Shown here piece after piece: positions 2,480-57,700 of a stretch of 64,000 bases of DNA. Below the pieces are notes generated by a model. It was not told the DNA's origin and did not search any database. It was given only the letters and a program-made list of their open reading frames with translations. The position numbers were made by a program, and so were the translations under genes. Source of the DNA: Rugalucina vietnamica (taxonomy: Eukaryota; Mollusca; Bivalvia; Lucinida; Lucinidae); NCBI GenBank assembly GCA_964017185.1, contig OZ024878.1, positions 16,079,851 through 16,143,850 on the forward strand, read 5' to 3'. Position 1 is the first letter of the stretch. Each line of letters opens with the position of its first letter.

Positions 2480-2502
2480 AAAAAAAAAAAAAAAAAAAAA
2501 AA
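2480..2502. repeat. A homopolymer
   Basis: An uninterrupted run of more than 20 A. It could be the tail of an old retroposed copy, but no recognisable body precedes it. Confidence 0.9.
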
Positions 2503-6600: not shown

Positions 6601-9600
6601 TGAGCCGCGTCATGAGAAAACAGGATTTTAGCCTATGCAAAAACAAAGACGCGGATCAGTTGTGCAGTAACTGCACAGCTGATCAGTGCCTTTGTTTTCG
6701 CCACTCGGATACTGTACAATTCCTCTTTTACTTAAATCCAGAATTCCAAGCGTCTAGCTTTCTTCTGTCATTGTACAGCGCGGTTTGTGTCAGACTTGGT
6801 CGGAAACCCAGAAAACTGGTTTTCTTGCGTCGCGGCTCAAGTAGTCTGAGATTGGGTCATTCGGAGGACTTCAGTCAGAGCCACATCATGAGAATACATG
6901 TATTCCGTCTTCAGGGTTTCCCACGCATAACGGCCTGTATAGTCACAGGAAAGGGCTACAAGCACAAAATTTCAAAGAACCATTGACCATTTCCTGTAGA
7001 ATATGCCTTGTTTTCGAAAGCCCAAAACTACGATTTTAAGCAATTTCTACTACAACTTTGCAATGAAAAAGGTAGTATGATGTCTTAAGAACGGATAAAT
7101 GCTATAACGTATGAAGCGTGAACATACTGTAGAAATGGCTAGGGAAGCGGGGGTAGGAGTCAAAAATTTGAAAATATAAATCGGAATAAAAATCATTTTT
7201 TGTTGCATGTCTGTATTCACTTCCTCCATTGTTGTGATTTTTAATCGTGTAGGTCAGTGATAAAAGTCTTAGACACCCTAAAATTCATCTCAAATATTTG
7301 ATGATTAATAAGCAACATTAATTTCATAAATTATTTTGGGAGTTACCTGTATATCATTACTAACAATGACAAGTATGAGCAAAGTCATGAGAAAATCTGT
7401 CATTAGTTTCCAAACAGGTAGAACATAAACCCAAGTTATGTAGCCAAAGAACATGACAAAATACTTCACAAATTGGGGTTTAAAAACACAGAGGAAGCAA
7501 AATGTCCATGCCATTGGCGACTACCACACAGCTGATCTGTACTTTAAGCTTGGTACACGTATCTGCAAAACACATTTTCTCATGGATGCCTCAATTACTG
7601 TATGATTTTCATAAACATGAAATGGCACGGAAGAATTTATTTGCAAGTCTGGAATGAATGACTGCATGCATGCCACTATTCAAATTAGATACATATGAAA
7701 TCTAAATGCTTTCTGTTAAAATTTTCCTACAGGGATCAAATATTTTCAATGTTAAAACTATGGTATATACATGCACCTGTACAGCTATAACACGCCCTGC
7801 TATCTCTTTCGCAATACACATCAATGAAATGTATAGAGAAAGAAGTACTTCAGTGAAATATTGTTAATCTAAATGAGTCAAGACATACTGTCAAGAGTAA
7901 ACCAAGATGATGCTACTAATTAAGTGTTTGACTAGATGCACAGACCTTAAATCCCTGTAAATCATGGATTAAGAAGTTTAATAAAGCAAATGCCTGAAGT
8001 AGTCAAAATCTTCATGTCATGATGCTGACATGAAATAACATGTACTTAGAGATCATCCATCACACAATTTAACGTGGATTGATATATTTACAAAGTCCCT
8101 AACCCCCCCTAAACTTTGAACATGTTGTTCTCAGTCCTGGGATACAGATCATTCATGATATTACATCTCCTGAAAGGGCTATGAATGACAAACGTTATCC
8201 TAGTAATATAACCAGAATTTGTATTTGCATTTTCGTGCATGTTGGTAGTGAAATGCACTGTTAGTTTGAAAACTGCTTTTATTTTTCTTGCATTGTTTTA
8301 CGCTTAAATAAGAAATATTGTGGGATGAGTGTTGGCACGGTAGTTAGTAAGTAGAAAAATCTATCAACTGCTATCATTTTTGTTCTGTTTGAAACAATTC
8401 TTACCGAAATATCTGCAGACAAAAAGCCTGTTTTTTGAGACTAATCAAGGTCAAATTAATGGGCTTATTTGTTATGTAAAAAGGCTATGGAAATATACTG
8501 TATATGTATGTTCTACCTGAATGAACAGACTACCTGTCCTATTTTAACAGGTATACACAGCGTGTACATACTATAATGCATATAAATATAGTGTACAAAA
8601 TAATTTTATCTATGTTTTATTTGAGACATGTCTCAGAGGACTTTAAATCCAACGTTACTTCAACAACACACAACAATTGTTTTTACCCTTATTAGATACA
8701 TAAAAGATATTGTCAGAAGAACTTCCCTAATGTCTAAAACGTATGAAGACACTGTTCAAAGTAAAAGTTGCTTAATTTATTTGGCATGGTGTATTTAAGG
8801 TACAGGTATTTGCATAAGTGACGGACAATATTATCTAAAGTAATAAATCTGATAAAGATGATGCACCTGCTATTCATGCAAATCGTTTCTAAGCTAATTT
8901 TTCAGCTTGCAAATTAGTTGGAGAACATTATTTAGACCTTCACAAAGGTTTCTATCAATTAAAATCAAAAATTTATTTTAAAGGATTATTTATGGAAATT
9001 TATTAGAAAAATAGGTAATTTCACTAAAAACTTCTATTACAATGGCTTCCCTTTGGAAAACATTATCATTCATAAGAAAGTTTAAGGTTTAGGGATTATT
9101 CTGGTATGTAACATGCCACATTTTTTTTTAAAAATCTATGAAATATTTATGAGCAGAAAACACTATTATTATAGTAATAAGGAACCTTAAATACTGACAA
9201 CTTTCCAATGTATAGTCTAAGTGCATTGAGGGACAAATGCCCCATTATTTTTCCTTTAATCAAGACTGATCTCTCCACGTGTTCAATCCAGTCATGTGCT
9301 TTGAAAGAATAGGGGGCGTGTATGTTTTAACTTGTATTGTAGTATAGATTGGTGCAAAATTTTGTTCCTTGAAATGTTATTTCTCTATTTTGTGAATGAA
9401 TCAAAAAAGAAAAATGTTTAAAAATCAATTATTTTCCCGTATTGGATGACAAAACTAGTACATGTATGTCTCACTTTATTGCACTTGATAGGAAAGAACC
9501 TAAATTCTACCATTCTCACTGTTCCCCCCAGATTACCAACAAGCCATTCAAATATAATATGTATTTTATGATGACCTCCCGTCTGTAGAAAGTCCATAGA

Positions 9601-12600
9601 TTCCATGGACTTCCTGGACATTTTCCATGGAATCCATGGATATTTTCCACAGAATGCATGGACATTGTCCATAGAACCCATGGAATGTGTGGACAATGTC
9701 CATGGAACCCATGGAATGTGTGGACAATGTCCATGGAGTCCAGGGACAATGTCCAGGGTACTGTGGACATTGTCCATGGAATTTTTGCAGCATCTCCTCA
9801 TGAAAGAGTGGACAAATTCCATGGACATTGTACACTGTCGTCCATGGACAATTTCCACTCTTAGAATTACCCATAATCCCATGATATCTGACATCACTTC
9901 CTTTTCCTGTTTCACATAATTTTAAAAAGTAAACAGAAATCTAGTCTGAACAAATCTTCAAACATCTAAGGCATCAGAATGCCAGCAAGCGAGAAACTTG
10001 AAGAATATACTGCAGACAGACTCAGAGATGCTAAATGAAAGAGAAAACTGCAAAAAACATTGATGGGAACTGGTCAAGATAAAGCTTTTGTAGAAAGCAT
10101 GTGGGGAATGAAAGAACATTTCTAGACAGATAAATTGATAAAAGCTAGGAGTTGCAAAACCAAGATTGTTACACTTGCTGCCTTGCAGGTAAGCATTTTA
10201 GATATGTTAAAATATGAAAAAACATGTATGTGCATGTTGTTCTTATTTATCATACTGCAGAAGTGTCTGGTTGGGGCATGTTAGATTTCATAATTTGGCC
10301 TGAATGAGAAGTCATTTTCAGAAAGACTTCCCCTCTGTAGAAAGTCCATAGATTCCTCTAGCTTCATGGTTGATACTAGACTGCTGGCTACCTTGTTGAG
10401 AAAGAGCTAGTCATCTTGCTCTTGGTGCATGTTGTACATGTAAAAATTATTCTTACATTTAAGACACAGAAATTGATCTTACATTTAGACACAGAAAATG
10501 ATCATAACATTCATTTTAAAATCCCAACCTAGAAAAGATCTTTTTTCCGCCCCGCCTGGTGTCTGGGTTGGGATTTTAAAATCAATGTTATGATCAATTT
10601 CTGTGTCTGTGTCTTTTAATTTTAAGATCCCAATCCAGACACCAGGCGGGACAGAAAAGATTTTTCTGTCCCACCTGGTGTCTGGGTCTGGATTCTAAAA
10701 TTAATGTTATGATCAATTTCTGTGTGTTAAATTCTTATGTAGTACATGACATAATTTGTCCAGCTTTTCTGTCCCACCTGGTGTCTGGTTTTGGGATTTT
10801 AAAATTAAGAATATGACCAATTTCTGTGTCCTAAATTCTTACATTTAAGACACAGAAATTGATCATAACATTAAATTGTGCATCATTCCTGTCCCGCCTG
10901 GTGTCTGGGTTGGGATTTTGAAATTAATGTTTTAATCAATTTCTGTCTTAAATTCTTACATTAAAGACAAAAATTGATTATAAAATTTAATTTGTACATC
11001 TTTTCTGGCCCCCTGGTGTCTGTGTTGGGATTTTAAAATTAATGTTATGATTGATTTCTGTGTCTTAATTTCTTACATTGTAATTAATGTTAAGATGAAT
11101 TTCTGTGTCTTAAGAATTTATGTTGTACATATAATTGTGCATCTTTTCTCTCCCGCCTGGTGTCTGATTTGGGATTTTAAAATTAAGGATGTGATCAATA
11201 TCTGATGACGAATCTTTGTGTCTTAAATTCTTACATTTAAGTCACAGAAATTGATCATAACATTAATATGTCCAGCTTTTCTGTCCTGCCTGGTATCTGG
11301 GTTGGGATTTTAAAATTAATGTTTAGATCAATTTTTGTGTCTTAAATTGTTACATTCAAGACACAAAAATTGATCACAAAATTAATTTGTGCACCTTTTC
11401 TGTTCCGCCTGGTGTCTGGTTTGGGATTTTAAAAATTAATGTTATGATCAATTTCTGTGTCTTAATTTCTTACATTGTAATTAATGTTAAGATCAATTTC
11501 TGTCTCTTAAGAATTTATGTTGTACATATAATTGTGCATCTTTTCTGTCCCGCCTGGTGTCTGATTTGGGATTTTAAAAATAAGGATATGATCAATATTT
11601 GATGATGAATTTCTATGTCTTGAATTCTTACATTTAAGACACAGAAATTGATCATAACATTAATTTGTCCAGCTTTTCTGTCCCGCCTGGTGTCTGGGTT
11701 GGGATTTTAAAATTATTGTTTTGATCAATTTTTGTGTCTTAAATTCTTACATTTAAGACACAAAAATTGATCACAAAATTAATTTGTGCATCTTTTCTGT
11801 TCCGCCTAGTGTCTGGTTTGGGATTTTAAAAATTAATGTTATGATCAATTTCTGTGTCTTAAATTTCTTAGATAATCAAATTTATTACGATTGAAATATA
11901 GAAATCAAATTTATTACAATTGAAATATAATTCTTTTGCACTGGAATTGTGTTTGCTTTTAATAACAACTGTCAACAAGAGATACTGTTAGTGTTAACGA
12001 GAGATGCATCTTGCCATAATGTGCATGAAAGCAATATGATTCAAATGTCTTCTCAGGGTTTACACTGCACAGCCATCTGCTATATATCAGTGGACAATGT
12101 CCATGGAAATATTCCATGGACATTGTCCATGGATTTTGTCCACAGTGTACCTGTACATATTTCATGGACATTGTCCATGGAACTTTTCCATGGACATTGT
12201 CCATGGATTTTGTCCACTGATTCCCTGGACAATCTCCATAGACTGTGGAAAAAGTCCATGGATTCTGTGGAAAAACTCCATGGATTCCATGGAAAAGTTC
12301 CATGGACATACTGGAAAAATTCCACGGACATACTGGAAAAACTCCATGGACATTTTCCATGGATTCACTGGAAATTGTCCAGTGTTTTCGTTCCAATACT
12401 CCAGCCGGACAATGTCCATGGATTCCATGGACTTTGTCCACTGATTCCATGGACTTTTTCCACTGGTTCCATGGACTTTCTACAGACGGGTTATCACCAT
12501 GCAAAAGGATTTGTTGGTAATCGGGGGGGGAACAATGTTCGAAAAATAGTAATCTGTTTTCCTATATTTTCAATACAAAAACTAGCTGTTTTAGCCCAAA

Positions 12601-32900: not shown

Positions 32901-35900
32901 AACCGAATGGTACATGCACAGAAGACACCTAGAGGCTGGAAATTTCAGATTTAGAAAGAAGAAGAATTGTACTATCCCTGTTACGATAACAAAGACGCTG
33001 ATCAGCTTCGCGGCTATTGCGAAGCTGATCTGCATCTCTGTTTTCGCATGTGCAAAATGTTGGTTTTCTCATGATGTGGCTCAATTTTATTGTTTTATTT
33101 TCTCTAAATGTGCCTGTTGTAAAATATGTCTCAATGTATTTTCTCAATACTTTTATCTGTTTTTTCCTGGATCAAGAGGTTGGGGATTTCGACCCCGACC
33201 GGTGCTTGGTTTTGTCCTTGAGCAAGACACATTATCTCCCTAAAGGTCTCGTCACATATAAGAGAAAATCCCTTGACATAGACCTGCGCAGACTTGCGTT
33301 TTATTGCGAAAAGGATTTTTTGTTTGATTAATTGCTTTCAACAGATAATGTCCTGACATGGCCATAGCTGTTGACTGCAACTTAAAACAATAAATCAAAC
33401 AAACAGAATCTACTTTTGGCATTGAAACGCAAGTCTACGTAGAGAGATTTTTGCTCATAACGACGCCTTATAAACCCGGTTAATTCCCCTGGAATCAGTG
33501 GCTTGTACCACCATGACTGTAGGATTGTTGACTCGGTTCTTAACCCACAAAAAAAACAATACAAAGACAGTAAAAGTGATCAGTGGTTTGCCATTTTCTG
33601 TACAGCATAATTTCAGATGGCGAATCCCATGGCCATTTGATTATGGTTGCTGCTTTCGGTATTTGAGCCACCTCATGGGAAAGCCTGCATATGCAAAAAC
33701 AAAGACACAGATCAGCTTCACAGTAACTGGGAAGCTGATCAGCGACTTTGTTTTTGCTACAAGTACAATTCCTCTTCTTCTTAAATCCGAAATTTCAAGC
33801 TTCTAGCCTGCCTCTGTGACTGAACAGCCTGATTTGTGTCAGACCTGTTCGGAAACCACATTGTTGGTCTTCTCATGATGTGGCTTATTTCTCTTAATCG
33901 TTTGATACCCTCATAGCTGTGTCCAGTTTGGATTTAGGGTACATGTGGGGCAATCCAAGTACTGCCTGAATGTGTACCAGGTTGTTTTTCTTGGTGTACT
34001 CCTGTTTTCTCCTCTCACCCACTACTGCTCGACCTGTTGCATTTGAGTAAAATAATCTTGAAAGGGAGGTAAAGCTGAATAAATAAAACAAGAAAAGAAC
34101 TTAAATTGAAACTTTCAGTTTTATGTCTGCAGTTACTAAACAGAAGTTTTGCCAAGCTAGTGTCTATTGTATCTTTCCTGGACTTATACAACATTTGTGA
34201 CAATGAAGCTCATATCTCTTCAGGTGGTGAAAGGAAGCAGTGGTACCGTTACGTCGACAACCAGGGATCACGCAACGCCTGGGTCCAGAAACTGTTCCAA
34301 GCATTCCGACAAGAAGCAACTCAAGCCAGAAAAACTTGTCAAATTGTCTCCCCTTCTAGCTCTCCAGCTCATCAGTCGTCCAAAAAGACGTCACCAGTCC
34401 GACCTTCACCTCGACCTTCGCCTCAGCCTTCACCTTCTGTTGTTAAGCGACAAGGTCAGAGCCCAGCCCACCAAGGTCAAGGACAGAGTCCTGCAAAACA
34501 AGGTCAAGTTCGAGGACACAGCCCAGCTCGCAGCCCAGTGCATCCTCAAGGTCAAGGTCAAACATCTCGAAAGGCAAAACTGTTGGAAAGTTGTATGGTT
34601 CTGCGGATAGAAGAGTTCATAATATATAGGATTTCCACAGCTGACAACAAAAGGAGTGCCCCAAGGAAGTTCTTCTGCTCAGACAAGAAAGCTCTTCATT
34701 TGCCGTCTGATATGTCGATGGTGCATATTGAGTACACAGACTACTTCTTCACAGAGGGGTTGGAGTACCCAGGTTGGTCAAGGAATTCTGATTAGTTCCA
34801 TTTCTTTGGCTGGCTGATAGAGAATAGCATGCAACAAATGAGCCGCCTCGTGGGAAAACCAACAGTGTGGTTTCCGAAAAGGTCCGACACAAACCGGCCT
34901 GTACAAGCGCAGAAAAGAGCTAGAAGCTTGAAATTTCGGATTTAAGTAGAAAAGGAATTGTCCTGCCCGAGTAGCGAAAACCAAGGCGCTGATCAGCTGT
35001 AACCGCGAAGTTGATCTGAGTCTTTGTTTTCGCCTATGCAGATTGTTGGTTTTCCCTGAGGCTTACAGTATCAAATACATAAGAATATTATGTAGCATAT
35101 GTTGATTTTGTGAAGAGGACAAGTCCACAGTACACTATTAATGAGGAAAATGGGTGTGCTAAACATGGAAAAAATCTAGACAAAAAATCTTACTGGAATC
35201 AAATTTACCTCCCTTTGCAAATTTTGCACCTTTTAAGCTAATAGGCGCATAGATTTGTTCATTCTGTTTGGATGTTTAGTCCATTGATTTTACTTTTATT
35301 AACATTTACAGTTCCCCATGCCAACCTGTATGTACTGGTAAATCCTGTACGGCTAACACTGGACTACCTTACTATCCTATGGGCCAATTACTTCTCGCTG
35401 AACCTCGCTCAATATTTGGTAAGGAATACCTTTCTATATCTGTATTTGAGTGGTGGAATGAGCTTTCCCTGAACTGGATCCTTCAGTTATCAACCTATGG
35501 AAACGGTGTATTAGAAAAACGGTGAATCAACGGGGGTTAATCGGAAAAATGTGAAGCATCGGGCGATGTGTCGGTGAGACATCAGGATTTGCACTAGATA
35601 AAAGGTATGTTGTTTGTTTACTTCTACTTTGAAGCGAAAGCTAAAAATACTGCAGAAAATAAAAACAAATCGAACACTTGCAGGAGCTGTAAGGGTCTTT
35701 GATGCAGCCCCGGAAACCCTAAAATTGTTGAAAATGTATTTTGTTTAATCGCCACAGTGCGCCCCATTTTACTACTCAAACATTTCAGTTGACTTTCGGT
35801 TGTATTTTTTGTTTATTTTTTATGCTTACATCGAATTACGAATGTAAACAACCTTAATTCAGATTGGTGAATATAGAAAAGTAAGCTCCTGATTATCAAC

Positions 35901-39700: not shown

Positions 39701-42700
39701 TTCACTGTAGGTTGTTGCTCAATCGATCTGACTACCAATCAGTAAACTCCATTTTTGTCAGGTTTCGTGTGTCGCTGCATCAATCTGCGCTGTAAGAATT
39801 TGATTGCATCCAGCGGTATTTAGCCCAATTTGACCTTGCTGTACCATAGTTGGTTTGTTTGAATTTAAGGCTTTACGTCCCAGTCAACAACCATTCAGTC
39901 ATGTCTGGACGGGGCCACCGCTTCCCGGGTATTTAACAAGAACTAAGGAGAGTTAATGTGCCTTGCTTAAGGACACAACCCGGTGCCACCGGTGAGGATA
40001 GAAAGGTAAAGAAATAACCTTTAATAATCAAGAAAGTCAGACTTTAACGATGGTCAGTCCTAAAAGGGAATAAGTCACGATTAACGACCGATATTAACAT
40101 TGTCACATTTTTTAAACAACAAATCACTGCCAGCACGAATTAACAGAATTTGAGGCTAACGCACAAGCAGGCTGAAAAAACAAACAGATCCACTGTTGAT
40201 ACGAATAACATAGAATGCAGAAATGTGTATCAGTCAGAAGGTTTATTTTCATAAATTTAAAGTAGTTCCCCTGGGGGTGTTACTACCCAAGCTCTGGGCC
40301 TATAAATGAGGACATATAAGACAGTATATAAAGTTTCAGGTGAGCGCTCTCATGGCCATCGGTCCTCTAGAATATACCTGGTAAACTGAGGCTATGTGGT
40401 AGCGCGTCGGACTCCAGAGCGAGAAGTCAGGAATTCGAACACCATGATCATCTTATAGTGTCCTTGGACGTGACACTTAATCTCCCCAAAGTATATGCCA
40501 ACTACCCCGGAAGCGGTGGCAATGAAAAATTATTGACTAGGATGTTACACAACAACACCATTCAATATCGATATTCGCAATTCAATGTCAAAACATGGTT
40601 ATGACTTGAACCACTTTCAGATCATGGAACAACTTTGAGTTCTGGAGAATATTGTTAAAGGATTTTACCAATATATGGACGTGGCGGCCGCCTTTGGTAT
40701 GGGCCGTTTATATACATGCCAGTGAGGCTTCATATTTTTCTGAAATATGAGTGATGTTTGAAAAACTGCAATTTGTAGTTTCACGGCAATCACTAATATT
40801 TCCTTAGAAGCCTCCGTGGCATGGTGGCCAAGCTACTGGCCTTGTAAATCAGGGGTCGTGTGTTCGATCCCGGGCTTTCGGGTGAGACTTTAAACCGAGG
40901 CCCCTTCTCCATATGACCTGACAGCTGTTGAGTGGGAAGTAAAACACCAATCAAACAAAGAAACAAACTAATATTTCCGAAAATATTTCCAGATGTCGTT
41001 AGCAGTTAACGGACGGCTAATCGGAACTAAAATTGCAATTTGGTGATGACGCTATGTAATTGCTCAAAATATTACTTGACTTTACAAAATTACTACAGTT
41101 GGGGTTGAGTTTAAAATGAATATATATACATGTACATATTTTAAACAACAAAAGATAATCCGTTTGGGAACGATTTTCACACAAGTGCGTCTGGCACTGG
41201 CAATGATTCAGGTGAACGCTAGTGTTTTACACTTGTCGGTCTAGCACTTTAATTTCCCAACAAGAATGGGTCGAAGATGATGCGGAATATGAAATTACCG
41301 GGTCGAAGATGACACGGAATATGAAATTACCTTGATCAAAAATAGCTCTAGAGTGTTTATAATCGGAAATTAATGCAATAAGTTTTGATTGCCCGATGAC
41401 TCACAAAATTCGCCCCGTTGTCTCACATATCTTGCCCGATGCCTCACATTATGTAAATGCACCTAGCATTAAATCCCTTTGCAATGCTTGGCGAGATTTT
41501 ATTTTTTGTGGGAATTTTCCAGTATACTATTATTCATTTGCAAATACCAACGTGACCTTCTTGGTCCATTTCTTTTACTAGAAAATCAAACGAAAATGTG
41601 TTTTCGTGGCCTTGAAAGGCATGCCCTCTAAAATGGGGTGCACAATCACGCGTTTCTTGGAATATTTATTTACAAACTGTTTAAATAATAAAGAACAATA
41701 ATGATTTCTACAGCTCCTGCAGCAAACAGAATTTTGACATGCAACGTCACCCAGCCATGTGGGAACAAAACAAAAAGAAGATTAAAACTACGTACCGTGT
41801 CGCCATTGTAAATCCCGATGTCTCACCGATACATCGCCCGATGCTTCACATTTTTTCCGATTAACCGTTTTTCTAATACACCGTTTCCATAGGTTGAATT
41901 ATAATAATTTTAAACATAAAAGAAGGAAAACAAAAGACATGCATGTATTAGACCATAGGCCTTCATACTGGGATATCTAAGGCAAATGTTTGCCTCATGG
42001 TCAACAGGTCAGGTTATTTTTAGATTGTCAACATAAAATTGTGATATTTCATTTTTAGCTCGCCTGCACGAAGTGCATAGAGCTATTGTAGTCACCTCGG
42101 TCGTCCCCGTTTACGTGTACGTTTACGTGTATGTCCGCGTCACACTTTCGGTTAAAGTTTTTTTGTAAGTCTATATCTCTTGACTGTGTTGATGGATCGA
42201 GTTGATACTTTGCATGTTGCTAGATATTGGTCTGAAGTTTTACGCAGTACCATCATGACCCACCCTGGGTGACCTTGAGGTCAAGGTCATGGACTTAGAA
42301 ATTATGTGTTTAAGTTTTTGGTTAAAGTTTTTGTAAGGCTATATCTCTTGAACATATTGATGGATTGAGTTGATACTTTGCATGTTGCTAGATATTGGTC
42401 TAAGTTTTACGCAGTACCATCATGACCCACCCTGGGTGACCTTGAGGTCAAGGTCACAGACTTAGAAATTTTGTGTTTAAGTTTTTGATTTAAGTTTTTG
42501 TAAGTCTGTATCTCTTCACCATGTTGATTGATCGAGTTGATACTTTGCATGTTGGTAGATATTGGTCTGAAGTTTTATGCAGTACCATCATGACCTACCC
42601 TGGGTGACCTTGAGGTCAAGGTCACAGACTTAGAAATTTTGTGTTAAATTTTTTGGTTAAAGTCTAAATCTCTTGATTATGTTGATGGATAAAGTTGATA

Positions 42701-45700
42701 CTTGCATGTTGATAGATATTGGTCTCAGGTTTTATGCTGTACATCACATCTCACCTGGATGACCTTGAGGTCAGGGTCACAGACTTGGAAGTTTTGTGTT
42801 TAAGTTTTGGTTAATGTTTTTATACGTCTATATCTCTTGAACATGTAGATTGATCAAGTTGATACTTTGCATTGGTCTGAAGTTTTATGTTGTACCATCA
42901 TGACCCACCTGATTGACCTTGAGGTCAAGGTCATGGGTCATAGATTTTAACAGATGTAGTGGCAAAGCACAAGTCAAGCGAGCTACGCTGTCCTGCGACA
43001 GCTCTTATTATTGTAAATCCATGTTCAATCACACATACGGTATGCTCATGTTGTAATTATTATAATTATTTTGTTCACCAGGAGACTCAGGTGATAGAAA
43101 ATGAGAAGACAGAACATGTTGACGTCAAGATAGAGGCCCTTATGCCCAGGGTAAGTCTTAATTATCATGTTGAATGTCCCAGTGGGTTGGGGTCTGAAGG
43201 TGGGCCAGGGGTGGGTGGGGTGCTAGAGAAGACAGAACATGTTGACGTCAAGATAGAGGCCCTTATGCCCAGGGTAAGTCTTAATTATCATGTTGAATGT
43301 CCCAGTGGGTTGGGGTCTGAAGGTGGGCCAGGGGTGGGTGGGGTGCTAGAGAAGACAGAACATGTTGATGTCAAGATAGAGGCCCTTATGCCCAGGGTAA
43401 GTCTTAATTATCATGTTGAATGTCCCAGTGGGTTGGGGTCTGAAGGTGGGCCAGGGGTGGGTGGGGTGCTAGAGAAGACAGAACATGTTGACGTCAAGAT
43501 AGAGGCCCTTATGCCCAGGGTAAGTCTTAATTATCATGTTGAATGTCCCAGTGGGTTGGGGTCTGAAGGTGGGCCAGGGGTGGGTGGGGTGCTAGAGAAG
43601 ACAGAACATGTTGATGTCAAGATAGAGGCCCTTATGCCCAGGGTAAGTCTTAATTATCATGTTGAATGTCCCAGTGGGTTGGGGTCTGAAGGTGGGCCAG
43701 GGGTGGGTGGGGTGCTAGAGAAGACAGAACATGTTGACGTCAAGATAGAGGCCCTTATGCCCAGGGTAAGTCTTAATTATCATGTTGAATGTCCCAGTGG
43801 GTTGGGGTCTGAAGGTGGGCCAGGGGTGGGTGGGGTGCTAGAGAAGACAGAACATGTTGATGTCAAGATAGAGGCCCTTATGCCCAGGGTAAGTCTTAAT
43901 TATCATGTTTTTAGTGCAGAACAGTGTTAGCCTGAACAGTGAACACTAAATGTATTGTATCTCACATGTCTTGGGTGGGGTGCTAGAGAAGACAGAACAT
44001 GTTGATGTCCAGATAGAGGCTCTTATGCCTAGGGTAAGTCTTAATTGAGGCTTTTATTAGCTCACCTGAGCCGTCAGGCTCACAAGGTGAGCTTATAGTA
44101 TACCCATGCTCCGTCGTCCGTCCGTCCGTCGTCCGTCGTCCGTCCGTCCGTCGTCCACAATTTTCAAAGATCTTCTTCTCTGAAACCGCTTGGCCAATCA
44201 AAGCCAAATTTTACATGAAGCATCTATGGGAAGGGGGAACCAATGTGTATATAAATAATCCAGGTCACATGACCAAGATGGCCGCCATGCCCATATATGG
44301 TAAAAACCCTTCAAAAATCTTCTTCTCCGGAACCACTGAACCGATTTCAACCAAACTTGGCATGAAGCATCGATGACTCAAGCACTACAATGTGTATATA
44401 AATCATGACCTTGCGGTGACCTTGACCTCTTTTACGGCAAGGTCAACATAGGTCGCCTTTGCATTTGAATGGGAAAAATTGTTAAATTGTCATTTAAAGG
44501 AAAAATCTTGCAGAAAATGAGCAGTAGGACTGAATATTAATGATTCTGAAAAAAATTGGGCACCAGGGGCTCATCCGCCCCCACCCCGGGGCAATATACA
44601 TGTATATTATCATAATATTCAAACATCTTCTTCTCTGAAACCGCTTGGCCAATCAAAGCCAAATTTTACATGAAGCATCTATGGGAAGGGGGAACCAATG
44701 TGTATATAAATAATCCAGGTCACATGACCAAGATGGCCGCCATGCCCATATATGGTAAAAACCGTTCAAAAATCTTCTTCTCCAGAACCGGTGGACCGAT
44801 TTCAACAAAACTTGGCATGAAGCATTGATGGCTCAAGCACTACAATGTGTATATAAATCATGACCCTGTGATGACCTTGATCTATTTTACGGCAAGGTCA
44901 ACATAGGTCACCAATGCATTGGAATGGGGAAAACTTTTAAAATGTAATTTAAAGTGAAAGTCTTGCAGGAAATGGGAAGTAGGACTGAATATTAATGATT
45001 CTGAAAAAAATTGGACCCCAGAGGCTCATGTGCCCCCACCCCGCGGCAATATACATGTATATTTCCATAATATTCAAACGTCTTCTCCTCTGAAACCGCT
45101 TGGCCAATCAAAGCCAAATTTTTTGTGAAGCATCTATAGAATGGGTGAATCAATGTGTATATAAATAATTTAGGTCACATGACAAAGATGGCCGCCATGC
45201 CCATATATGGTAAAAACCCATCAAAAACCTTCTTCTCTGAAACCAATAGACTGATTTCAAGGAAACTTGGCATGAAGCATCGATGGCTAAAGTACTTTAA
45301 TGTATATATAAATCAGGACCCTGTGATGACCTTGACCAAGTTTATGGCAAGGTCAACATGGGTTGCCTATGCATTTGAATTGGGAAAACTGTTAAAATGT
45401 CATTTGAAGGGAAAAGCCAGCAGGAAATTGGCAAATGGACAGAATATTGAAGATTCAGAAAAAAGAAAATGGCCCAAGGGCTTCATCTGCCCCTGCACTG
45501 GAATAAAATACCATAATATTCATACATGTTTATTGGTATATGCAGCAGATCTCAGGTGAGCGTTTACAGGACCTTTGGTCCTCTGGTCTTCTTTGTTAAG
45601 TAGAGTGATTCATTTACTTCCTAATTCTGTCAACAGAAGAAACCCATAAATTCATTAGAACAACAAGATCATGGTTGGCTGATCACTATTTGGTGATTTC

Positions 45701-48700
45701 AAACTGCCTTTTATTAAAAACCTGGGGCCAGTTATTCAAAACTCCGTAAGCTTATTAACGTCATCGTTAAGATCTCAATTCGTTTAGTAAATGCCAACTA
45801 GATAAGCAAATACACTGTTATTTTTTGTTGATAAAATGTGAGAATCCTTTGCAGAGTATTTGATATATTCATGTTTGAAATTTTAATGAATCATTAACTA
45901 ACGACATCGTTAATTTTGAACAACTGGCCCCATATTTTTAAAAGGGGATGTGATAAATTTTATAATAGTAATAGTAAACGTAATACTGAATTATTATAAT
46001 AGTACATGTAATTAGAATAAGAAGCAAGAATGATACACTGACCAAGTGACCATTGTTTAAAGAGGATGACACATTTAGTACAAGACCCTCAATGAGGCCC
46101 TCTAACATGTTATAATATCGACTGCAGGTTGTGTTGTCTGCAGAGGAAAAAGTTGAAAATCAACCAGATCGTCCTGACTCCATCCAACTCCAAATCTCCA
46201 AACTTACGGCTTCCAATACTCATGTTGAGGACAACTTTACGCTGCATGATCTGAAAGAAATCCTTAAGCAATACAGTAACTGTGATCTCATACGACAAAC
46301 AGAATTTCCAAATAACGAAAATCAGTTGTCAGCCATTCCAAAAAGCTTACAGGATTTTGCCGATTCTCGGTTAAATCCGTATTTGAATAAGTATGCATAT
46401 AATCTGGTGCGTGGGAAACTGCCTGACGGCTACGCAGAGTTGGATTATGGGACTGAAGGATCTTTAAAAATATTGCAAACAAACACTCTTAAGAAAGATC
46501 AGAGATGCGATATTTGGACATTATGCGTAGATCAAGTATGGTTGGAATTTTTAGACACTCCGACGAGTAGAACGAGACCAGTGCCATTTGTAGAATCCAT
46601 TCCATTGACCTTGTGGGTGTGTCAGCCATCTTTGATTCCTGATTCTGTTGTTAGCCCCAGTGATTCCGAGGTGTTTGAATCGAGTAAAACTGAATACGCA
46701 AATGAGAATGGAAATTGTAGTAAAAGAGATGCTCGACCGTCGAAAATCAGGTTAAAAGAGTTTTACTCCACTTCAAGCGAAGGAAGTATAGAAACCGATT
46801 CCAAAAGTTGTGATAGTGAACAAGCAGATGTAAAATGTCAAGAAGAGCTTCAAGGGGCGGATAACTGTGATAAAACTTCTGAAGAGGGCAATGTGCAATA
46901 TGCGGCTGGACAGGTTGCAAATTTCAACGTCGTTGCCAGAATTGGTGGCAAACTTCGTGCTCAATTGAACCATTTTCAGTATTTATTTCTCATGCGACTC
47001 CTAGAGTCTGTTACAAACTTCCAGACACAAATGAATGCCGATTTAGAACAATACCTTAAAAGCGGCTCCACCCCAGAAACCACATTTTCAATCCCTTTAG
47101 TCATTCCAGAGATAGAATTTGCAATGGTCTGCCCCTACATAGCTGAGTTACTTCCCTTGACTCAGCCGGCAGATCTTGGTAGTCCAGTGAGTGACGATTT
47201 GGAGCAAAGGAGGGGCTCCCGTGACACAGACAGTGACATTGTCACAAGTACTGAAGGACAAGGTCACATGTATGAGACATATGGGAAGGAAGCTTATACT
47301 GAGGAAAGGCTGGCAGTGAACGGAACCGAAGACCAGTATTTGACCGTGACACAGACTGCTAATGGTTTGTTTTCTATTCCATATACTATTTTTTTTTTTT
47401 TCTATAACATCTTCAACCTTTGAGAATACACATAAAGTGACAGAAATGAAAAACACAAAAGAAGAAAAAAAAAAAAAATTGCATTTTGAAAGTCATGCTA
47501 GTATTAACTCATTTAAGCCTGGCGTCCTTTTTATGGGACATAGGCAAACAGAATAGCCCCAGATGTGACGCCGCAGAACGCGGCGTCCCATCTGGGACTA
47601 TTCTGTTTGCTTACAGGAATTTCATCGAAAAATGGAATAAAAAATCAAAATCACTCCCGTTGTCCCTAGAAATGAAAGTGGATCCACCCAATTGATAATG
47701 ATGGGAAAATACATTCGTCAAATATGGGTAAATAGGTATTAAAATTGAAAACATAATCAGTGACGGGAATATTTTGATACATGCTTGCTTACAACAACAG
47801 CAGCTCTAATGTCTGCCAGTTTCAAAAGTTTCAAAGATATTAGAAAAACATGTAGTTCCTTGGAAAAACTGAATACACTTTAATAAGCTATTTTTGATTG
47901 TTGGCCCTGCCCGTTGGGTCCCTGAGATATAGATAGACAGCTGTGCCTCCAGGCAAAGTTTATAATCAACTCACCAGTCACCACCTGATTACTGGTCAGC
48001 TGCTTAGAAGTTCTGAGCCTGCCAAGGAAGAGTGGTTTAATCAAATCATCCATACATATAAATTGGTTGTTTTCTTCGATGGTTTTATTTTAAAGCTTTC
48101 TTTCTTTCTTTCTCTCTTTGGAAAGTCTTATCCTCCAAGGGCTGGGTACACCCACATTACGTGGTATAAGTGTCTCTGAAGAATCTGCATATTATTAAGG
48201 AATACCCTCCACCATCGGAATATGTACATACATAAATGCAGCATTGACATTTAAGCACATTTTGTATATCATCATTTTGTATATCATGATATTCCAATGT
48301 TGTGTAGAAGTCCCATAAATGGTGGCAATGTCCCAACATGATCATAACTGTTGACTTGGACATATGGTAACAAGTTAATCAGTCAGTCAATATTTTGTTT
48401 GTTAAAGGTCCGTCTATCCAGATCAGTGAGCATCTTCCAACTCCAATGGAAAGCTATCTGTCAAAGTCTCAGAGTGACTCCAGGATAGTGAGACATTCGG
48501 ACGGCTCAGCGGGAACAGAAAATGAAGAAGGTATGTTCTGTAAAGACATGTATCCTGTATTTTGGGCACCCATTTATTTAACCGTAAACACCATAAAATT
48601 CTATCTATGAGGCTTCATCTCTCCATGAAGCAAAAAAGAAAAACAAATGATAATAAAATACAGTGAAGACTGAAGTTCATGTATCTCATTCTAGGTCTGC

Positions 48701-51700
48701 TCTGTTTTGGGATTATAATATTTTTTCAACTTTCGTATAAATAATTTTTAGCTCGCCTGTACGAAAGTACAGGAAGAGCTATTGCAATCACCCCGGCGTC
48801 GGCGTCGGCGTTCGTGTTCGCGTTCGCGTTGCTCAAATGTTAAAAGTTTTTCATTAAAGTTTTTACAAGTCTATATCTCTTGAACATGTGGATGGATCAA
48901 GTTGATACTTTGCATGTTGGTAGATATTGGTCTGAAGTTTTATGCAGTACCATCATGACCCACCCTGGGTGACCTTGAGGTCAAGGTCACGGACTTAGAA
49001 ATTTTTTGTTAAAGTATTTGGTTAAAGTTTTTAGAAGTCTATCTCTCTTGAACATGTAGATGGATCAAGTTGATACTTTGCATGTTGGTAGATATTGGTC
49101 TAAAGTTTTATGCAGTACCGTCATGACCCACCTTGGGTGACCTTGAGGTCAAGGTGTCGGACTTAAAAATTTTTTGTTAAAGTTTTTGGTTAAAGTTTTT
49201 AGAAGTCTATATCTCTTGAACATGTAGAGGATCAAGTTGAAACTTAGCATGTTGGTAGATATTGGTCTGAAGTTTTATGCAGTACCGTCATGACCCACCC
49301 TGGGTGACCTTGAGGTCAAGGTCACAGACTTAAAAATGTTTTGTTAAAGTTTTTGGTTAAAGTTTTTAGAAGTCTATATCTCTTGAACATGTTGATGGAT
49401 CAAGTTGATACTTTGCATGTTTGTAGATATTGGTCTTAAGTTTTATGCTGTACCATCACGACCCACCTGAGTGACCTTGAGGTGAAGCTCATGGGTCATA
49501 GATTTTGATAGATTTAGTGGCAAAGCACAAGTCAGGCGAGCTACGCTGTCCTGCGACAGCTCTTATTATATGTACATTGCTTTTGAAGGGTCCTGCTAGG
49601 CCTGGTAATCAATTGATGTGCTGAGTTGTTTCTAAAAGTAACACATACTTTCTATTTACATGTATAATGTAATTTTTTAAAAACATCTTTTAACTGTCGT
49701 CCAATACCCATCTAAATTTTACAGTTTGAATTGATAGGATACAATGTGTACATTTGAGCCGCCCCATGGGAAAACCAACAATCTGCATAGGCGAAAACAA
49801 AGGCGCAGATCAGCTTCGCGGTTACCGCGAAGCTGATCAGTGCCTTTGTTTTCGCTACTCTGATAGTACAATTCCTCCTCTACTTAAATCCGAAATTTCA
49901 AGCTTCTAGCTCTTTTCTGTGCTTGTACAGCCCGGTTTGTGTCGGACCTGTTCGGAAACCACATTGTTGGTTTTCCCACGAGGCGGCTCATATGTTGTCA
50001 GGGTTAAGACGAGATTCCCATTCCACCGATGACATATCCGCTGAAGATGCCAACCTTACCACAATGTCCAAAGATGTCCACTACATTGCCGCTAGCGACT
50101 CTGGCTTGTCCTCCATGACATCATCTTCCTTCGCATCAGCCGAAGGTCAAAGGTCAAGGTCATCGAGTAAACTCTCATCTCAGGCCGTCAAAAAGTCTTT
50201 CACCTCAGGCGTCAACAATATTTCAAGTTTTATGGGAAAGATCAAGAATAAGCTAGACCCGGATGACCTATCGGATGATTCTGATCGACTCTCAATAAAG
50301 ACTGATTTGTCGGATGATGATTTTGAGTTTCTAGCACTGGATGAAACGGAGATGCCAGCGTTCAATCATGGGGCAAAGTCGGACTCTATGTCAACCTTGG
50401 ATGACACAGATGATCTATCAAGTGTGTTTGCAGAGAGTACTTCGGCATCAAAAGCTAAGGAACTTGTAAGTCAAGTTAATTGAGCTGTGCCATGAGAAAA
50501 CCATAGATGTGGTTTCCAAACATGTCGACACAAACCGAGCTATGCAGTTGCAGAAGTAGGCTAGAGGCTGGAAATTTAGGATTTAGAAAGTAGAAGATTT
50601 GTACAACCTATTTAGCGAAAACAAAGGCAGTAACTGCGAAGCTGATCTGCACCTTTGTTTTCGCCTATGCAAAATGTATTTCTCGTGACGCGGCTCAATT
50701 GTTATTTTTCTATTCACAATCCTCTTGTTACTAGTTTAGGGTATACTACACATGACAGTCAGTCAAACAATGTTTCTCTTATGATTTTCAAGATGATGTA
50801 GTTTAAATCCTTGTAAGAGTCTACTGAAGCGCAATTGACCATACAGGAATTGTACTAGGTTATGTAATGCACCAGTCATTTGTAACTACTGCCCCCCCCC
50901 CCCCTTACGTGGTTTTGACATTAGGATCCTTACCCCAGGGAGATTTTCTATTGCAAATGGTGGGGCAAAGAGCAAAGTTTTGACCTCCAGTTTGCCCCCT
51001 GGGGGTTGGGCTCATTGCAGGGCACTGAAAGCTGAAAAGTCATAATCCCCGCCCTTCCCCATAGGTGGGGGAGCAGTATTTACAAATGACTGGTGCATAA
51101 ATCCAAGACAAAAACTGGCCAGCGTTGGTTTCAAGTGCAATCTTAACTTCTTGTGTAACAACTATCCACAAGTAGCTATGTGCATTTGTTTGTCTTAGAT
51201 TTTGTTTTAAATTTCCTGGTCAATTAATATTTGAGCCTTTGCGTGAGAAAACCAACAGTTTGGGTTTCCGACCAGGTCCGACACAAACTGGCCTATACAG
51301 TCACAGATGCAGGCTAGATTAGAAGCTTGAGATTTTGAATTTAAGAAGAAAAGGGATTTTACTATCTGTGTAGCAAAAACAAAGGTGCTGAACAGCTTTG
51401 TGGTTACCGTCTGTGCCATTGTTTTCGCATATGCAGATTGTTGGTTTTCTCACATAAAGGCTCATTTGACTGACAGTTTGTGTTTGATCAGTTTGCTCCA
51501 TGCAAATGAAAATTATTATTTTTTTATTTTATTTTTTTTTTTTTTTTGCGATCTCGCCACGGCAAGAGCGCATATATAATTGGACAGGGCTGGAATCTTG
51601 TTGTTAATCGACCAGAGTTCCGGCCGCACTTGATTGGACGAGGCATTTCCGATTGAGTCACACTAAATACTGCATGCCGGCTCGGGTAAACCGAGCTGCC

Positions 51701-54700
51701 AGAGTCTTTTCAGTCTGTGGTTATCGCTGTGTCATACAGTGAAAATAGTGCTAAGAGATTGCAAGCGTTTTTAGCTCGCCTGCACGAAGTGCATAGAGCT
51801 ATTGTAGTCACCTTGGTTGTCCCCGTTTACGTGTACGGTTACGTGTACGTCCGTGTCACACTTTCGGTTAAAGTTTTTTATAAGTCTATATCTCTTGACC
51901 ATGTTGATGGATCAAGTTGATACTTTGCATGTTGCTAGATATTGGTCTGAAGTTTTACGCAGTACCATCATGACCCACCCTGGGTGACCTTGAGGTCAAG
52001 GTCACGGACTTAGAAATTTTGTGTTTAAGTTTTTGGTTAAAGTTTTTGTAAGTGTATATCTCTTGACCATATTGATGGATTGAGTTGATACTTTGCATGT
52101 TGCTAGATATTGGTCTGAAGTTTTACGCAGTACCATCATGACCCACCCTGGATGACCTTGAGGTCAAGGTTACGGACTTAGAAATTTTGTGTTTAAGTTT
52201 TTGGTTAAAGTTTTTGTAAGTCTATATCTCTTGACCATATTGATGGATTGAGTTGATACTTTGCATGTTGCTAGATATTGGTCTGAAGTTTTAAGCAGTA
52301 CCATCATGACCCACTGTCGTTGACCTTGAGGTCAAGGTCACAGACTCAGAAATTTTGTGTTTAAGTTTTTGATTTAAGTTTTTGTAAGTCTATATCTGTT
52401 GACCATGTTGATTGATCGAGTTGATACTTTGCATGTTGGTAGATATTGGTCTGAAGTTTTATGCAGTACCATCATGACCTACCCTGGGTGACCTTGAGGT
52501 CAAGGTCACACACTTAGAAATTTTGTGTTAAAGTTTTTGGTTAAAGTCTAAATCTCTTGAACATGTTTGTTGATGGATAAAGTTGATACTTGCATGTTGA
52601 TAGATATTGGTCTCAGGTTTTATGCTGTACATCACAACTCACCTGGATGACCTTGAGGTCAGGGTCACGGACTTGGAAGTTTTGTGTTTAAGTTTTGGTT
52701 AATGTTTTTATAAGTCTGTATCTCTTGAACATTTAGATTGATCAAGTTGATACTTTGCATTGGTCTGAAGTTTTATGTTGTGCCATCATGACCCACCTGA
52801 GTGACCTAGAGGTCAAGGTCATGGGTCATAGATTTTAACAGATGTAGTGGCAAAGCACAAGTCAGGGGAGCTACGCTGTCCTGCGACAGCTCTTATTAAA
52901 ATGCTTATACTTGTTTTTAATTCAGTTTTACATCCCTTTCAAGATTATTTCAGCTCATATAAGACTGGCAAATCAGTAGGTGGGGCGAAAATGGGAGAAC
53001 CCCAAGAAAAAACACCTGGCACACCGGCATACAGAACTTGGCTTGTCTCACATGTGGCCAGTGCGGGCTCGAACCTACACCAGACACAGCAGTGAGATGA
53101 CCGAGTGATTAAGAAACAGCGCTCTTAACCGCTCGGCCACGGGAGCCGCTGAAAATTAATTTTGTCTGAAGATAAGATAAGATCAGAAAATTTGTTTATA
53201 ACATAAGCTGTGATGAGCTTTTGACCATCTGTACCATTTCTTTCACAAATTAAGATTTGAATTCTATGATTTTAATGCCACAGTCATTTCTAACCATGGC
53301 ACCACAACCCAGCCTAGGGGAGGGGGGAACCTAGCCAGGCTTCAACTTAAGCACAGTCCCTACAGTGCAGGAGTGGTATCCTGTTTTTGTTTTTATTGGC
53401 AAAGAGGGCAATATTAAGTAGCCATAGCAGACTTTGAGGGGTTTGCTGGACTAAGTCAAAGTCTCTGCTTTTCCCAGGGGCAAAGAGGCATGGTTACAAA
53501 TAACTAGTGGATAGGTATCATTTATTTTGATACAGGTATCAGCCATAGTATTTCGACTATCAGGCCTGGAGATTTTACTACAAGGCACAGGACCCGATAT
53601 TTATGCTCGCCTACAAGCTAAGAAGATTGATATTGAGGAGACGGGGAATATTGTATATGAAGATTTCTACATGAAATTGTCATCTTCAAAAGGTATATAC
53701 TACACATAACTCTTCAAATACCACATACACCACAACCTCTTTATAACACTATTGTTGGGGTCCAAGCCAATTTCTGTGTCAGCTATCCAATCCGTGTTAT
53801 AACGAGAGTAAAATGTATATAGACAAATACCAAAAATAACCATTTGGGGTCCAACAATGATCAGTGCTATATCCAAAACCGTCTTATAACAAATCATGTT
53901 ATAAAGAGGTCAATGTGTAACTGAATGTTATAATCTAGAATTTATCAAAGCGAATTTACCGTTCAGTGATAAAAAGACTAGACAAACAGGGTAGATAATA
54001 AGTAGACTTGGAGTAGCCACTGCCCACTGCAATATTTGCTCAATATCTTGTGCAAACTGAAACATAGATCATTTCATCTACTGTTGAAAATTATGTATGT
54101 TATGCATGTTACAGACTGTAGGCTTATAATGCTTGTATTTCATGATGCACTGAAAACCATTTATGGTCCAAAGAGTTCTGGAGCCACCACATTGCTCAGT
54201 GCAGATGGAAACACTCTTCTCACAGATAAAGAAGCTATCTTGGAAAGGTGGGCAGAACACTTCAATAGTGTGCTTAATCGACCATCAAGCATCAATGAGG
54301 ATGCAATCGACAGACTTCCACAGATAGAGTGCAATGTTCTGTTAGATGAATTTCCTACCGTTACGGAAACAAGAAAAGCAGTTCAACAACTATCATCTGG
54401 CAAAGCCCCAGGTGCAGATGCAATTCCTGCCGAAGTTTACAAGGCTGGGGGGCTACCCATGGCAGAGAAACTGACAGAGTTGTTTCACTGTATGTGGAGA
54501 AAGGAGGCTATCCCACAAGAATTTAAGGATGCATCCATAATCCACCTATACAAGCGGAAAGGAAATCCTCAAGTCTGTGACAATCACAGAGGCATCTCCC
54601 TCCTATCAATTGCTGGGAAGATACTTGCAAAAATTCTGTTGAATCGTCTGAATGTTCATCTTGATCAGACGGGACTTATCCCAGAAAGTCAATGTGGATT

Positions 54701-57700
54701 CAGAAAAGACAGAGGGACAATAGACATGATATTCACAGCAAGACAGCTTCAGGAGAAATGCCAAGAACAGAATGTAGATCTATACATGACGTTTGTTGAC
54801 CTCACCAAAGCTTTTGACACTGTTAGTCGTGATGGACTCTGGAAAATCATGGCCAAGTTTGGCTGTCCACCCAGATTCATAGCAATGGTGCGGCAGTTTC
54901 ATGATGGCATGCAGGCACGTGTGCAAAATGATGGAGAGTTCTCTGAACCATTTGAAGTAACAAATGGGGTCAAACAAGGCTGTGTTCTGGCACCAACACT
55001 GTTCAGCATGATGTTTTCTGCCATGCTTATGGATGCTTTTCAGGACAGTGACACTGGTTTTCCAATCAGGTACCGTTTTGATGGCAACATATTCAACCTC
55101 AGAAGGTTGCAAGCCAAAACTAAGGTCCAGACTGATGTGCTAGATGAGCTCCTCTATGCAGATGATATGGATAAGTATGCCAGCACAGAGGCAAAAATGC
55201 AAAGAGCCATGGATCAAGTCTCACAGTCATGTGATAACTATGATCTCACAATCAGCACAAAAAAGACAGAGGTTGTACACCAACCAGCGCCCGGAAAGCC
55301 ATATAATGAACCAACCATCACTGTGAACGGGCAAAAACTGAAAGTTGTTGACAAGTTCACCTACCTGGGAAGCACTCTCTCCAGAGCAGTGCATATTAAT
55401 GATGAGATCACTGCCAGAATTGCAAAGGCTAGTGTGGCATTCGGACGACTCCGTGCAAATGTCTGGGAGCGAAATGGAATCAAGCTTGACACCAAGCGGA
55501 AAGTCTAGAAGGCTGTGGTACTGCCAACCCTCTTGTATGCATGTGAGACCTGGACAGTATACCAGCGCCATGCAAAGAGACTTAACCATTTCCACTTAAG
55601 CTGTTTGAGAAAGTTGTTAAAAATCAAGTGGCAGGACAAGATTCCAGACACAGAGGTCCTGACGAAAGCAGGGATGCAAAGCATGCATACAGTCTTAAAG
55701 CTAGCACAGCTAAGATGGACTGGCCATGTTATAAGAATGCCTGATGCGCGACTTCCAAAGAAAGTTTTCTATGGAGAACTACAGGAGGGAAAGCGCTCTC
55801 AAGGTGGCTAGAAGAAACGCTACAAGGACACCCTCAAAGCCTCTCTGAAGGATTTCGAAATACCAATGGGGTCCTGGGAACAGACTGCACAGGAGCGATC
55901 AAAGTGGCGAGGTCTCATCAACAAGGGAGCAGCTCTTTATGAAAAGAAGAGAATCTGTGAAGCTGAAAGAAAGCGAAGAGAGCGCAAAGCCAAAACAAAT
56001 GTGCCACTATCAGACTCTATGACATTGACTTGCTCTACTTGCAACCGACAGTTTAGAGCCAGAATTGGCCTAGTCAGCCATCAAAGAACTCACCAACACA
56101 CATCAGCACTATTCAAGAAATAATGATGGTCTTTCTCATTAGTGAGAGACGAACTATCATTTTGTGATATAAACAGCTAAGTTTGTCCATTTCGTCCTAA
56201 AGGATCTGATCCGCTGCAATGGAAAACCAACAATCTGCATATGCGAAAACAAAGACGCAGATCAGCTTCGGGTAATCGCGAAGCTGATCAGCTCCTTTGT
56301 TTTTGCCACACACATAGTATGATCCCTCTTTTTCTTAAATCCAAAACTCAAGCTTCTAGCCTTCTTCTGTGGCGGTACAGCCCAGTTTGTGTCGGACCTG
56401 GGCGGAACCCAAAATTGTTGGTTTTCTCACGCACAGGCGCATCTATGCTGTACATGTTAACTCAGTGAGACTTAATGTGGTGCTTCTATACAATATCTTA
56501 AACTTGAAATAGACCAAAAATATTTCATTTAATCACTTTATTCCCACAAAATGTAAGCTACTGTTTTCTTTTGCAGGTATAATGAGAGAAGCCACAGACT
56601 TATCAGGGACCACTTTTCCTCTCAAATTCAAGTTCATCTCGGGCCCCGCTGCAGAGAAAGAGGTCCCTAAAGGGTCAGAACTGGGTTTCATGGATGCCAG
56701 GATAAGCCAGTACAAGTTTGAATTGAATATGTCCGGTATAACACACCTGACCAGTTTCATTGAAGATGAAAAGGTGACGACCCCAACGCCCATGCATGTG
56801 TCAGTCTCGGATCTCAGTATTATACTCAAGGTAAAACAGATTTGAGCCGCCTCGTGGGAAAACCAACAATGTGGTTTTTGAACAGGTTCGACACAAACCA
56901 AGCTGTACAATGACAGAAATGAGCTAGAAGCTTGAAATTTCGGATTTAAGTAGAAGAGGAACTGTACTATCCGAGTAGCGAAAACAAAGGCGCTGATCAG
57001 CTTCGCGGTTACCGCGAAGCTGATCTGTGCCTTTGTTTTCGCCTATGCAGATTGTTGGTTTTCCCATGGGGTGGCTCATTTCATAATAAAACCTGTGTCT
57101 ATAACATTGTTGATTCTTTTCTGGTTGGGATCTCAGTATTATACTTAAGGTAAAACAGATTTCATAATAAAAACCTGTGTATAACTTGGTTGATCTGTTT
57201 ATGGTTGGGGATGTAATACCGGTCAGTATAGGACCCCAATTTGTCTTTTAAACAGAAAAGATGTATTTTCCTGTATAAATACTGTAATGCTTTCTTTTTA
57301 TACTACAGGCCACTGCAGGGTTTTAAATTTGATTTAGACTAAAATAGTAATGTAATGAAAAGGTAAATTAGAATTGGTTTTAGATGAAAACATTATGTTT
57401 TGGGGTTTTATTATTTTAGTTAGTTTACTTTTTATAGTACTATATGTGTAAAGTTGCTGGTTGGCCTTAGATGCATTTTTAATAAGGAAAAAATCAATAA
57501 TGAGTTTACAGTGTTTGCTTGGGCCTATTATACATGTATCTTTCACAAAACTATAGAAAATTGTTTGATTTTTATAGGAGGATAGACCATCCCCTAATCC
57601 ATCACAACCAGCTCCAGCCCCTACTGTGATGAATATTCATGATTTGTTTATCCATTGTTATGATGATGGAGTCTTTCATATGAACTCAGGTAAACATTAC

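Follow-up and report, generated by a model that had tools for sequence, protein, structure and literature searches.

The 3′ end of exon 12 of the BLTP3 gene, together with its donor and the start of intron 12, is amplified into a tandem array that is probably a young donor-spanning minisatellite, near neutral, in which donor 1 is mostly used and the preserved reading frame is a coincidence. The array more closely resembles a by-product of mutation than a means of adjusting the length of the protein. It lies within the 64,000 nucleotides of Rugalucina vietnamica analysed here, which will be denoted as the window.

The original assignment of the gene to BLTP3 is borne out by the Pfam family PF24917 (BLTP3A_B; BLTP3 represents the UHRF1BP1/SHIP164 family). 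Eight of ten window segments match this profile, two of them at 21.7 and 23 bits and thus just below the 24-bit cut-off, and exons 10-13 joined reach 221 bits. When the entire genome was searched with the PF24917 profile, eight exon matches were obtained, all within this window, and accordingly no processed BLTP3 copy that might serve as a sign of donor use. Exons 10-13 found no relative among the solved structures (best E 0.88). As to a further small exon between exons 11 and 12, six candidates were obtained with simple consensus rules, one of which passed a crude motif filter and was unconvincing.

Table 1. Features of the BLTP3 exon 12 locus (window positions) and of exon-end and related arrays elsewhere in the genome. 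Slashes mark splice sites.
Feature	Position	Strand	Basis
BLTP3 exon 11, phase 0 end at TTG/GTAAGG	35312..35418	+	acceptor, donor, open frame; PF24917 positions 513-553
BLTP3 exon 12 with donor 1 (ETQVIENEKTEHVDVKIEALMPR)	43082..43150	+	acceptor TTCACCAG/GAG, donor AGG/GTAAGT; PF24917 score gain
Six full-length 123-bp units	43103..43840	+	repeat finder, copy alignment
G-rich quadruplex-type motif in intron part of unit 1, recurring every 123 nt in units 2-6	43184..43220	+	G4Hunter 2.04 in six places; GGGTTGGGG...GGGTGGGG
Intron-coded peptide of the unit (VSLNYHVECPSGLGSEGGPGVGGVL)		+	translation of intron part of array
Copy 7, truncated, donor after 43888	43841..43909	+	copy alignment
TAG ending the exon-12 frame beyond copy 7	43928..43930	+	stop-to-stop ORF 42944-43930
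Eighth copy, degenerate, intact GTAAGT after 44033, out of frame	43972-44046	+	blastn, frame test
BLTP3 exon 13 (VVLSAEEK...), acceptor GACTGCAG/GTT	46128..47378 (3′ end approximate)	+	spliced frames, PF24917 positions 578-888
L081, exon end (DVVCDPMCGSGSISVQ) and donor, 9.6 copies, period 65, adjoining exon	G000:C7:59975700-59977300, 459-1095		array sequence, family match
L038, exon-like stretch ending STPLHRNSICMELKDR and donor, about 28 repeats, period 64-78	around G000:C6:40220381, 547-2703		
L077, exon-like stretch MADIDRVSNDQPANGHKISPLTHGKCFQ, end and donor repeated 10 times, period 69	G000:C11:2771300-2774300, 1160-2148		
L078, two arrays whose units contain GTAAGT: 54 nt x 15.6 (183-1018), 72 nt x 4.0 (1457-1744)	G000:C12:2952800-2955800		

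Tandem Repeats Finder reports a period of 123 over 43103-43909 with 6.6 copies and 99% matches. The 123-bp unit comprises 48 nt of the end of exon 12, the donor, and the first 75 nt of intron 12, and exon 12 itself measures 69 nt from its own acceptor to donor 1. Copies start at 43103, 43226, 43349, 43472, 43595, 43718 and 43841. The unit had been described as present seven times, which holds for six full copies, the seventh being cut after 69 nt that match the unit, with diverging intron sequence beyond. Likewise, the seven donors of the original prediction all carry an identical AGG/GTAAGT, and an eighth, older copy with an out-of-frame donor (43972-44046) had been overlooked. The latter is 93% identical to the unit over 61 nt by blastn and 94.7-96% over 75 nt, and it shares with the array the junction between unit end and exon fragment. 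Because this diverged copy carries that junction, duplication at exon 12 would predate the recent growth of the array. Over the matched part of copies 1-7 there is a single variable site, a synonymous CpG (GAC/GAT), whose variants read C C T C T C T from copy 1 to copy 7. This order suggests that the array has grown as a 246-bp dimer, and together with the near identity of the copies it points to recent growth. A genome-wide search with the unit, which skips common words, gave eight hits, all at the BLTP3 locus; the array is not a chance pattern.

The surroundings of exon 12 are rich in other repeats. Three mutually related repeats (42052-43010, 48744-49577 and 51768-52898) contain internal arrays of about 167 bp and look like copies of one mobile element; the first of them ends about 70 nt before exon 12. 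Another repeat with a 455-bp internal tandem array, bounded by the inverted pair GCTCACCTGAG / CTCAGGTGAGC, occupies 44060-45561 and begins 14 nt past the eighth copy, so that a repeat lies close on either side of exon 12 and its array. A 500-aa open frame at 54006-55508, within the BLTP3 gene, resembles by eye a mobile-element reverse transcriptase (YADD). Further away lie arrays built from a palindrome-rich unit of 22 bp with TCCATGGA (9592-9782 and 12091-12479), which have open frames on both strands.

The seven donors follow positions 43150, 43273, 43396, 43519, 43642, 43765 and 43888. Joined to exon 13 at 46128, each of them retains phase 0 and yields no stop in the spliced-frame test, which confirms the predicted frame arithmetic with 123 as a multiple of three. 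The eighth donor (after 44033) is out of frame and located behind the TAG at which the exon-12 frame stops, and it is therefore unusable. Twenty GTAAGT motifs occur on the plus strand of the window, eight of them within the BLTP3 cluster. With respect to chance, a unit length divisible by three is expected in one of three cases, and 25.7% of 20000 random 75-nt window stretches are open in the given frame. Duplications of an exon end plus intron start were enumerated for every allowed pair of break-points. For exon 12, the product was a multiple of three and stop-free in 362 of 9955 cases with the intron following copy 7 and in 998 of 3080 with the intron part of the unit itself; the corresponding counts were 1022 of 16833 for exon 11 and 69 of 15566 for exon 10. 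The open frame of the BLTP3 array is thus uncommon, not extraordinary.

The products of the individual donors differ in their fit to the protein family. With donor 1, exons 10-13 match PF24917 in a single stretch (221.0 bits, positions 373-730); omission of exon 12 lowers the score to 188.7 bits in two stretches. Inclusion of one additional unit gives 222.4 bits and that of six units 214.7 bits, in two stretches each, the score for one unit not being lowered relative to 221.0. As judged by the profile, the conserved BLTP3 product is the donor-1 product, with an unlowered score for one added unit. Each unit encodes 41 residues, 16 from exon 12 and 25 intron-coded and glycine-rich, and a Pfam search of the read-through peptide alone gave no PF24917 match. 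Matches of this peptide to HicB (36.4 bits, cut-off 21) and DUF4245 were rejected as repeat artefacts, since no single stretch passes. The extra units do not behave as family-like modules that extend the lipid-transfer rod, as +1 and +6 units both split the PF24917 match. The splice-controlled lengthening of the protein proposed in the original prediction is therefore unsupported: the donor-1 product matches the family unbroken, and extra units interrupt it. Extended inserts and loops have been reported within RBG domains (PMC7613979), so that an inserted unit in BLTP3 could nevertheless be tolerated.

Predicted pairing with U1 amounts to -9.5 kcal/mol and is equal for all seven donors. Among the 3792 GTs of the window 22 pair with U1 as well or better, and 8 of these 22 are donors of the BLTP3 cluster. 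Nine GGG triplets are found within the 75 nt next to donor 1, the same 75 nt are present in units 2-6, and donor 7 is followed by none; such triplets could favour the earlier donors over donor 7. The pyrimidine fraction of the acceptor is 0.56 for exon 13 and 0.67 each for exons 11 and 12. For the 12 AGs inside unit 2 it ranges from 0.28 to 0.61, by a simple measure without a branch-point model. Among strong donors of equal quality, the intron-proximal site can be preferred. Use of donor 1 results in an exon 12 of 69 nt and use of donor 7 in one of 807 nt, and the splicing expectations conflict, with intron-proximal preference on one side and an ordinary short 69-nt exon via donor 1 on the other. 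The best expectation, by analogy with human ABCA7, would be donor 1 as the main and donor 2 as a minor site. G-rich motifs are reported to destabilise the CEB1 minisatellite in yeast, CEB25 having hardly responded (PMC3486850). As a general cause of exon-end arrays a G-rich motif was discarded, none being visible by eye in the printed sequences of four arrays from elsewhere in the genome (L038, L070, L077 and L081).

For comparison, the genome was scanned for pairs of closely spaced strong donors, with the reversed pattern as control. The scans returned 60 versus 11, 93 versus 54 and 73 versus 61 matches, and many of the 60 belong to one dispersed repeat. A preference of tandem arrays for donors is not shown by this census, as the reversed patterns match often too. 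Array sequence was read at 11 donor-bearing loci, five of which (L038, L070, L077, L081 and L083) were judged exon-end arrays, their unit joining the 3′ end of an exon and a GTAAGT donor to a brief piece of the beginning of the intron. The count excludes L072, L079 and L080, where no exon evidence was seen, the ambiguous L074 and L082, and L078. L040, L052 and L069 were passed through the repeat finder only and lie outside the 11 loci.

At all five loci, for which both frame and first-donor use are inferred, the frame is kept by donor 1 only (L038 1/26, L070 1/2, L077 1/11, L081 1/9, L083 1/3). L070 is a phosphoglycerate mutase exon (E 5.7e-14 to a solved mutase) with two copies at a spacing of 76; a second copy of this exon, 68% identical, is present elsewhere in the genome, and the mutase gene of L070 might therefore be dispensable. 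L081 is a UPF0020 methyltransferase exon (E 2.4e-6) with nine donors at a spacing of 65, and its nine genome matches all lie inside its own array. L038 harbors 26 exact donors. In L077, which has 11 donors and an in-frame stop beyond the donor, other sequence intervenes between exon and array, 266 nt separating donors 1 and 2. L083 has three donors in the fetched stretch and an exon-like unit. L038, L077 and L083 gave no Pfam family match, and their exon calls rest on acceptor, open frame and donor. The second array of L078 has a possible 30-nt exon start and is open over 83 residues, so that L078 may be a second frame-open array and, if counted, would weigh in favour of frame neutrality. Provided that these genes work, the first donor would be the main one in the five sister genes. 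Since BLTP3 is one frame-neutral case among six arrays, its neutrality needs no selection and is most simply ascribed to chance.

The BLTP3 array has, in the one assembly analysed, the structure of a donor-spanning VNTR, with exon-end units that each contain a 5′ splice site and the first of them representing the exon's own donor. A minisatellite with multiple splice donors was reportedly described by Turri, Cuin and Porter in 1995 in human IFI6 (gene 6-16), and its unit is said to measure 12 nt. The two systems share an exon-end tandem repeat whose units bear splice donors, whereas the BLTP3 unit is much longer with 123 nt, including 48 nt of coding exon. In IFI6, two downstream repeat units are reported to be used as donors, giving several mRNA species (PMC4526556); in contrast, the downstream BLTP3 donors are putative. 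The VNTR in intron 18 of human ABCA7 has, according to PMC5954066, a purely intronic, out-of-frame 25-bp unit in 12 to about 427 copies, a number that varies between people. As in BLTP3, the ABCA7 array begins at the exon's own donor and has a donor in each unit; the BLTP3 unit differs in being a multiple of three and open and in including exon sequence. Canonical splicing together with retention of one unit is reported for ABCA7, as are skipping of the next exon that rises with allele length and, in 90% of one brain sample set, alternative transcripts that together exceed the canonical one (PMC5954066).

Reported cases of intron gain, namely potato RdRp, yeast and ATP2A1, likewise involve a tandemly duplicated segment that carries splice signals; the potato duplication crosses an intron-exon boundary, and fission yeasts have repeated 24-bp AGGT units (PMC4974935). 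In these cases the duplication creates a new intron complete with an acceptor. The BLTP3 array, in contrast, appears to have given rise to extra donors of an old intron, the AGs of its unit being poor in pyrimidines by the simple measure used. The sister arrays, with 2 to 26 donors, differ from BLTP3 in keeping the inferred frame at donor 1 only. The kind of array is thus already known from IFI6 and ABCA7, with boundary-crossing duplication described for intron gain as well. What stands out is the length of the unit, which includes 48 nt of coding exon, and the fact that such arrays recur at several loci of one genome. Among the top-ranked open-access papers, judged by title and start of abstract, none reported exon-end donor arrays as a genome-wide class, which is a weak absence.

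Other explanations of the BLTP3 array have to be weighed against these data. It is very unlikely to be a protein-length VNTR under splice control, in which several donors are productive and add 41 to 246 residues, with the copy number setting the maximum. Such a device agrees with seven phase-0 donors in an open array, a sole variable site that is synonymous and a PF24917 score that one additional unit leaves unlowered, and in IFI6 two downstream units are reported as donors (PMC4526556). However, the family match is broken in two by extra units, the glycine-rich stretch of 25 intron-coded residues in each unit lacks a BLTP3 match, and the sister arrays are not frame-neutral, hence no selection is needed for neutrality. 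That the intron-proximal donor 7 wins and the long form with its 807-nt exon 12 is the main product appears highly improbable. The preference for the intron-proximal of equal strong donors would favour it, but the same rule would cost five sister genes their frame, donor 7 is devoid of the G-rich tract found downstream of donors 1-6, and a 69-nt exon would have to grow to 807 nt.

By analogy, a row of U1 sites and G-rich RNA could act on gene dosage through unit retention, exon skipping or slower splicing with increasing copy number. This is unlikely, despite the presence of six G-rich motifs and eight strong donors at one intron start, an exon 13 acceptor poorer in pyrimidines than those of exons 11 and 12, and the increased skipping of the next exon reported for longer ABCA7 alleles, since the latter effect was traced over alleles of up to about 10 kb (PMC5954066) and the BLTP3 array spans 0.8 kb. 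An assembly artefact with fewer copies in the animal, as near-identical copies might suggest, is extremely improbable in view of the ordered C/T variants, the truncated copy 7 and the diverged copy 8; furthermore, as the assembly comprises 1.09 Gb in 47 contigs, it was probably made from long reads, able to span 0.8 kb. Rather unlikely, finally, is the broader idea that tandem amplification in this genome preferentially affects the 3′ ends of exons together with their 5′ splice sites. In that case a recurrent donor-tied mutational process would yield ladders of identical donors, occasionally in frame as in BLTP3, and thereby raw material for stepwise lengthening of proteins.

A near-neutral minisatellite with predominant use of donor 1 thus remains the preferred reading. 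It would have started when a segment spanning the junction of exon 12 and intron 12 was duplicated in tandem, with later growth through slippage or unequal exchange, to which the G-rich part of the intron may have contributed. The spliceosome would define exon 12, with its 69 nt, from the exon's own acceptor and use mostly donor 1, donor 2 to a minor extent and the donors beyond it less, the 41 residues per unit being a tolerated by-product of an array close to neutrality. This minisatellite reading is supported by the unbroken donor-1 match of 221.0 bits, by the inferred frames of the sister loci (5/5 at donor 1 only) and, by analogy, by the ABCA7 precedent of canonical splicing with retention of one unit. 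Contrary to it are the equal U1 pairing of the seven donors combined with the preference for intron-proximal sites, the score of the +1 product and the inserts reported in RBG domains, as well as, again by analogy, the predominance of alternative ABCA7 transcripts in that brain sample set. In addition, L078 is possibly frame-open, the frames of the sister loci are inferred, and three of the five lack a protein match.

The recurrence within one genome is more interesting than the kind of array, which is known. If arrays did prefer donors, which the census does not show, this would suggest an undescribed mutational process. A single genome contains six arrays with 2 to 26 donors, and in five of them the inferred frame would be lost with any donor other than the first. 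For such rows of identical donors, intron-proximal preference and limits on exon length predict opposite outcomes, which makes the rows a natural test of 5′ splice-site choice by the spliceosome among equal candidates.
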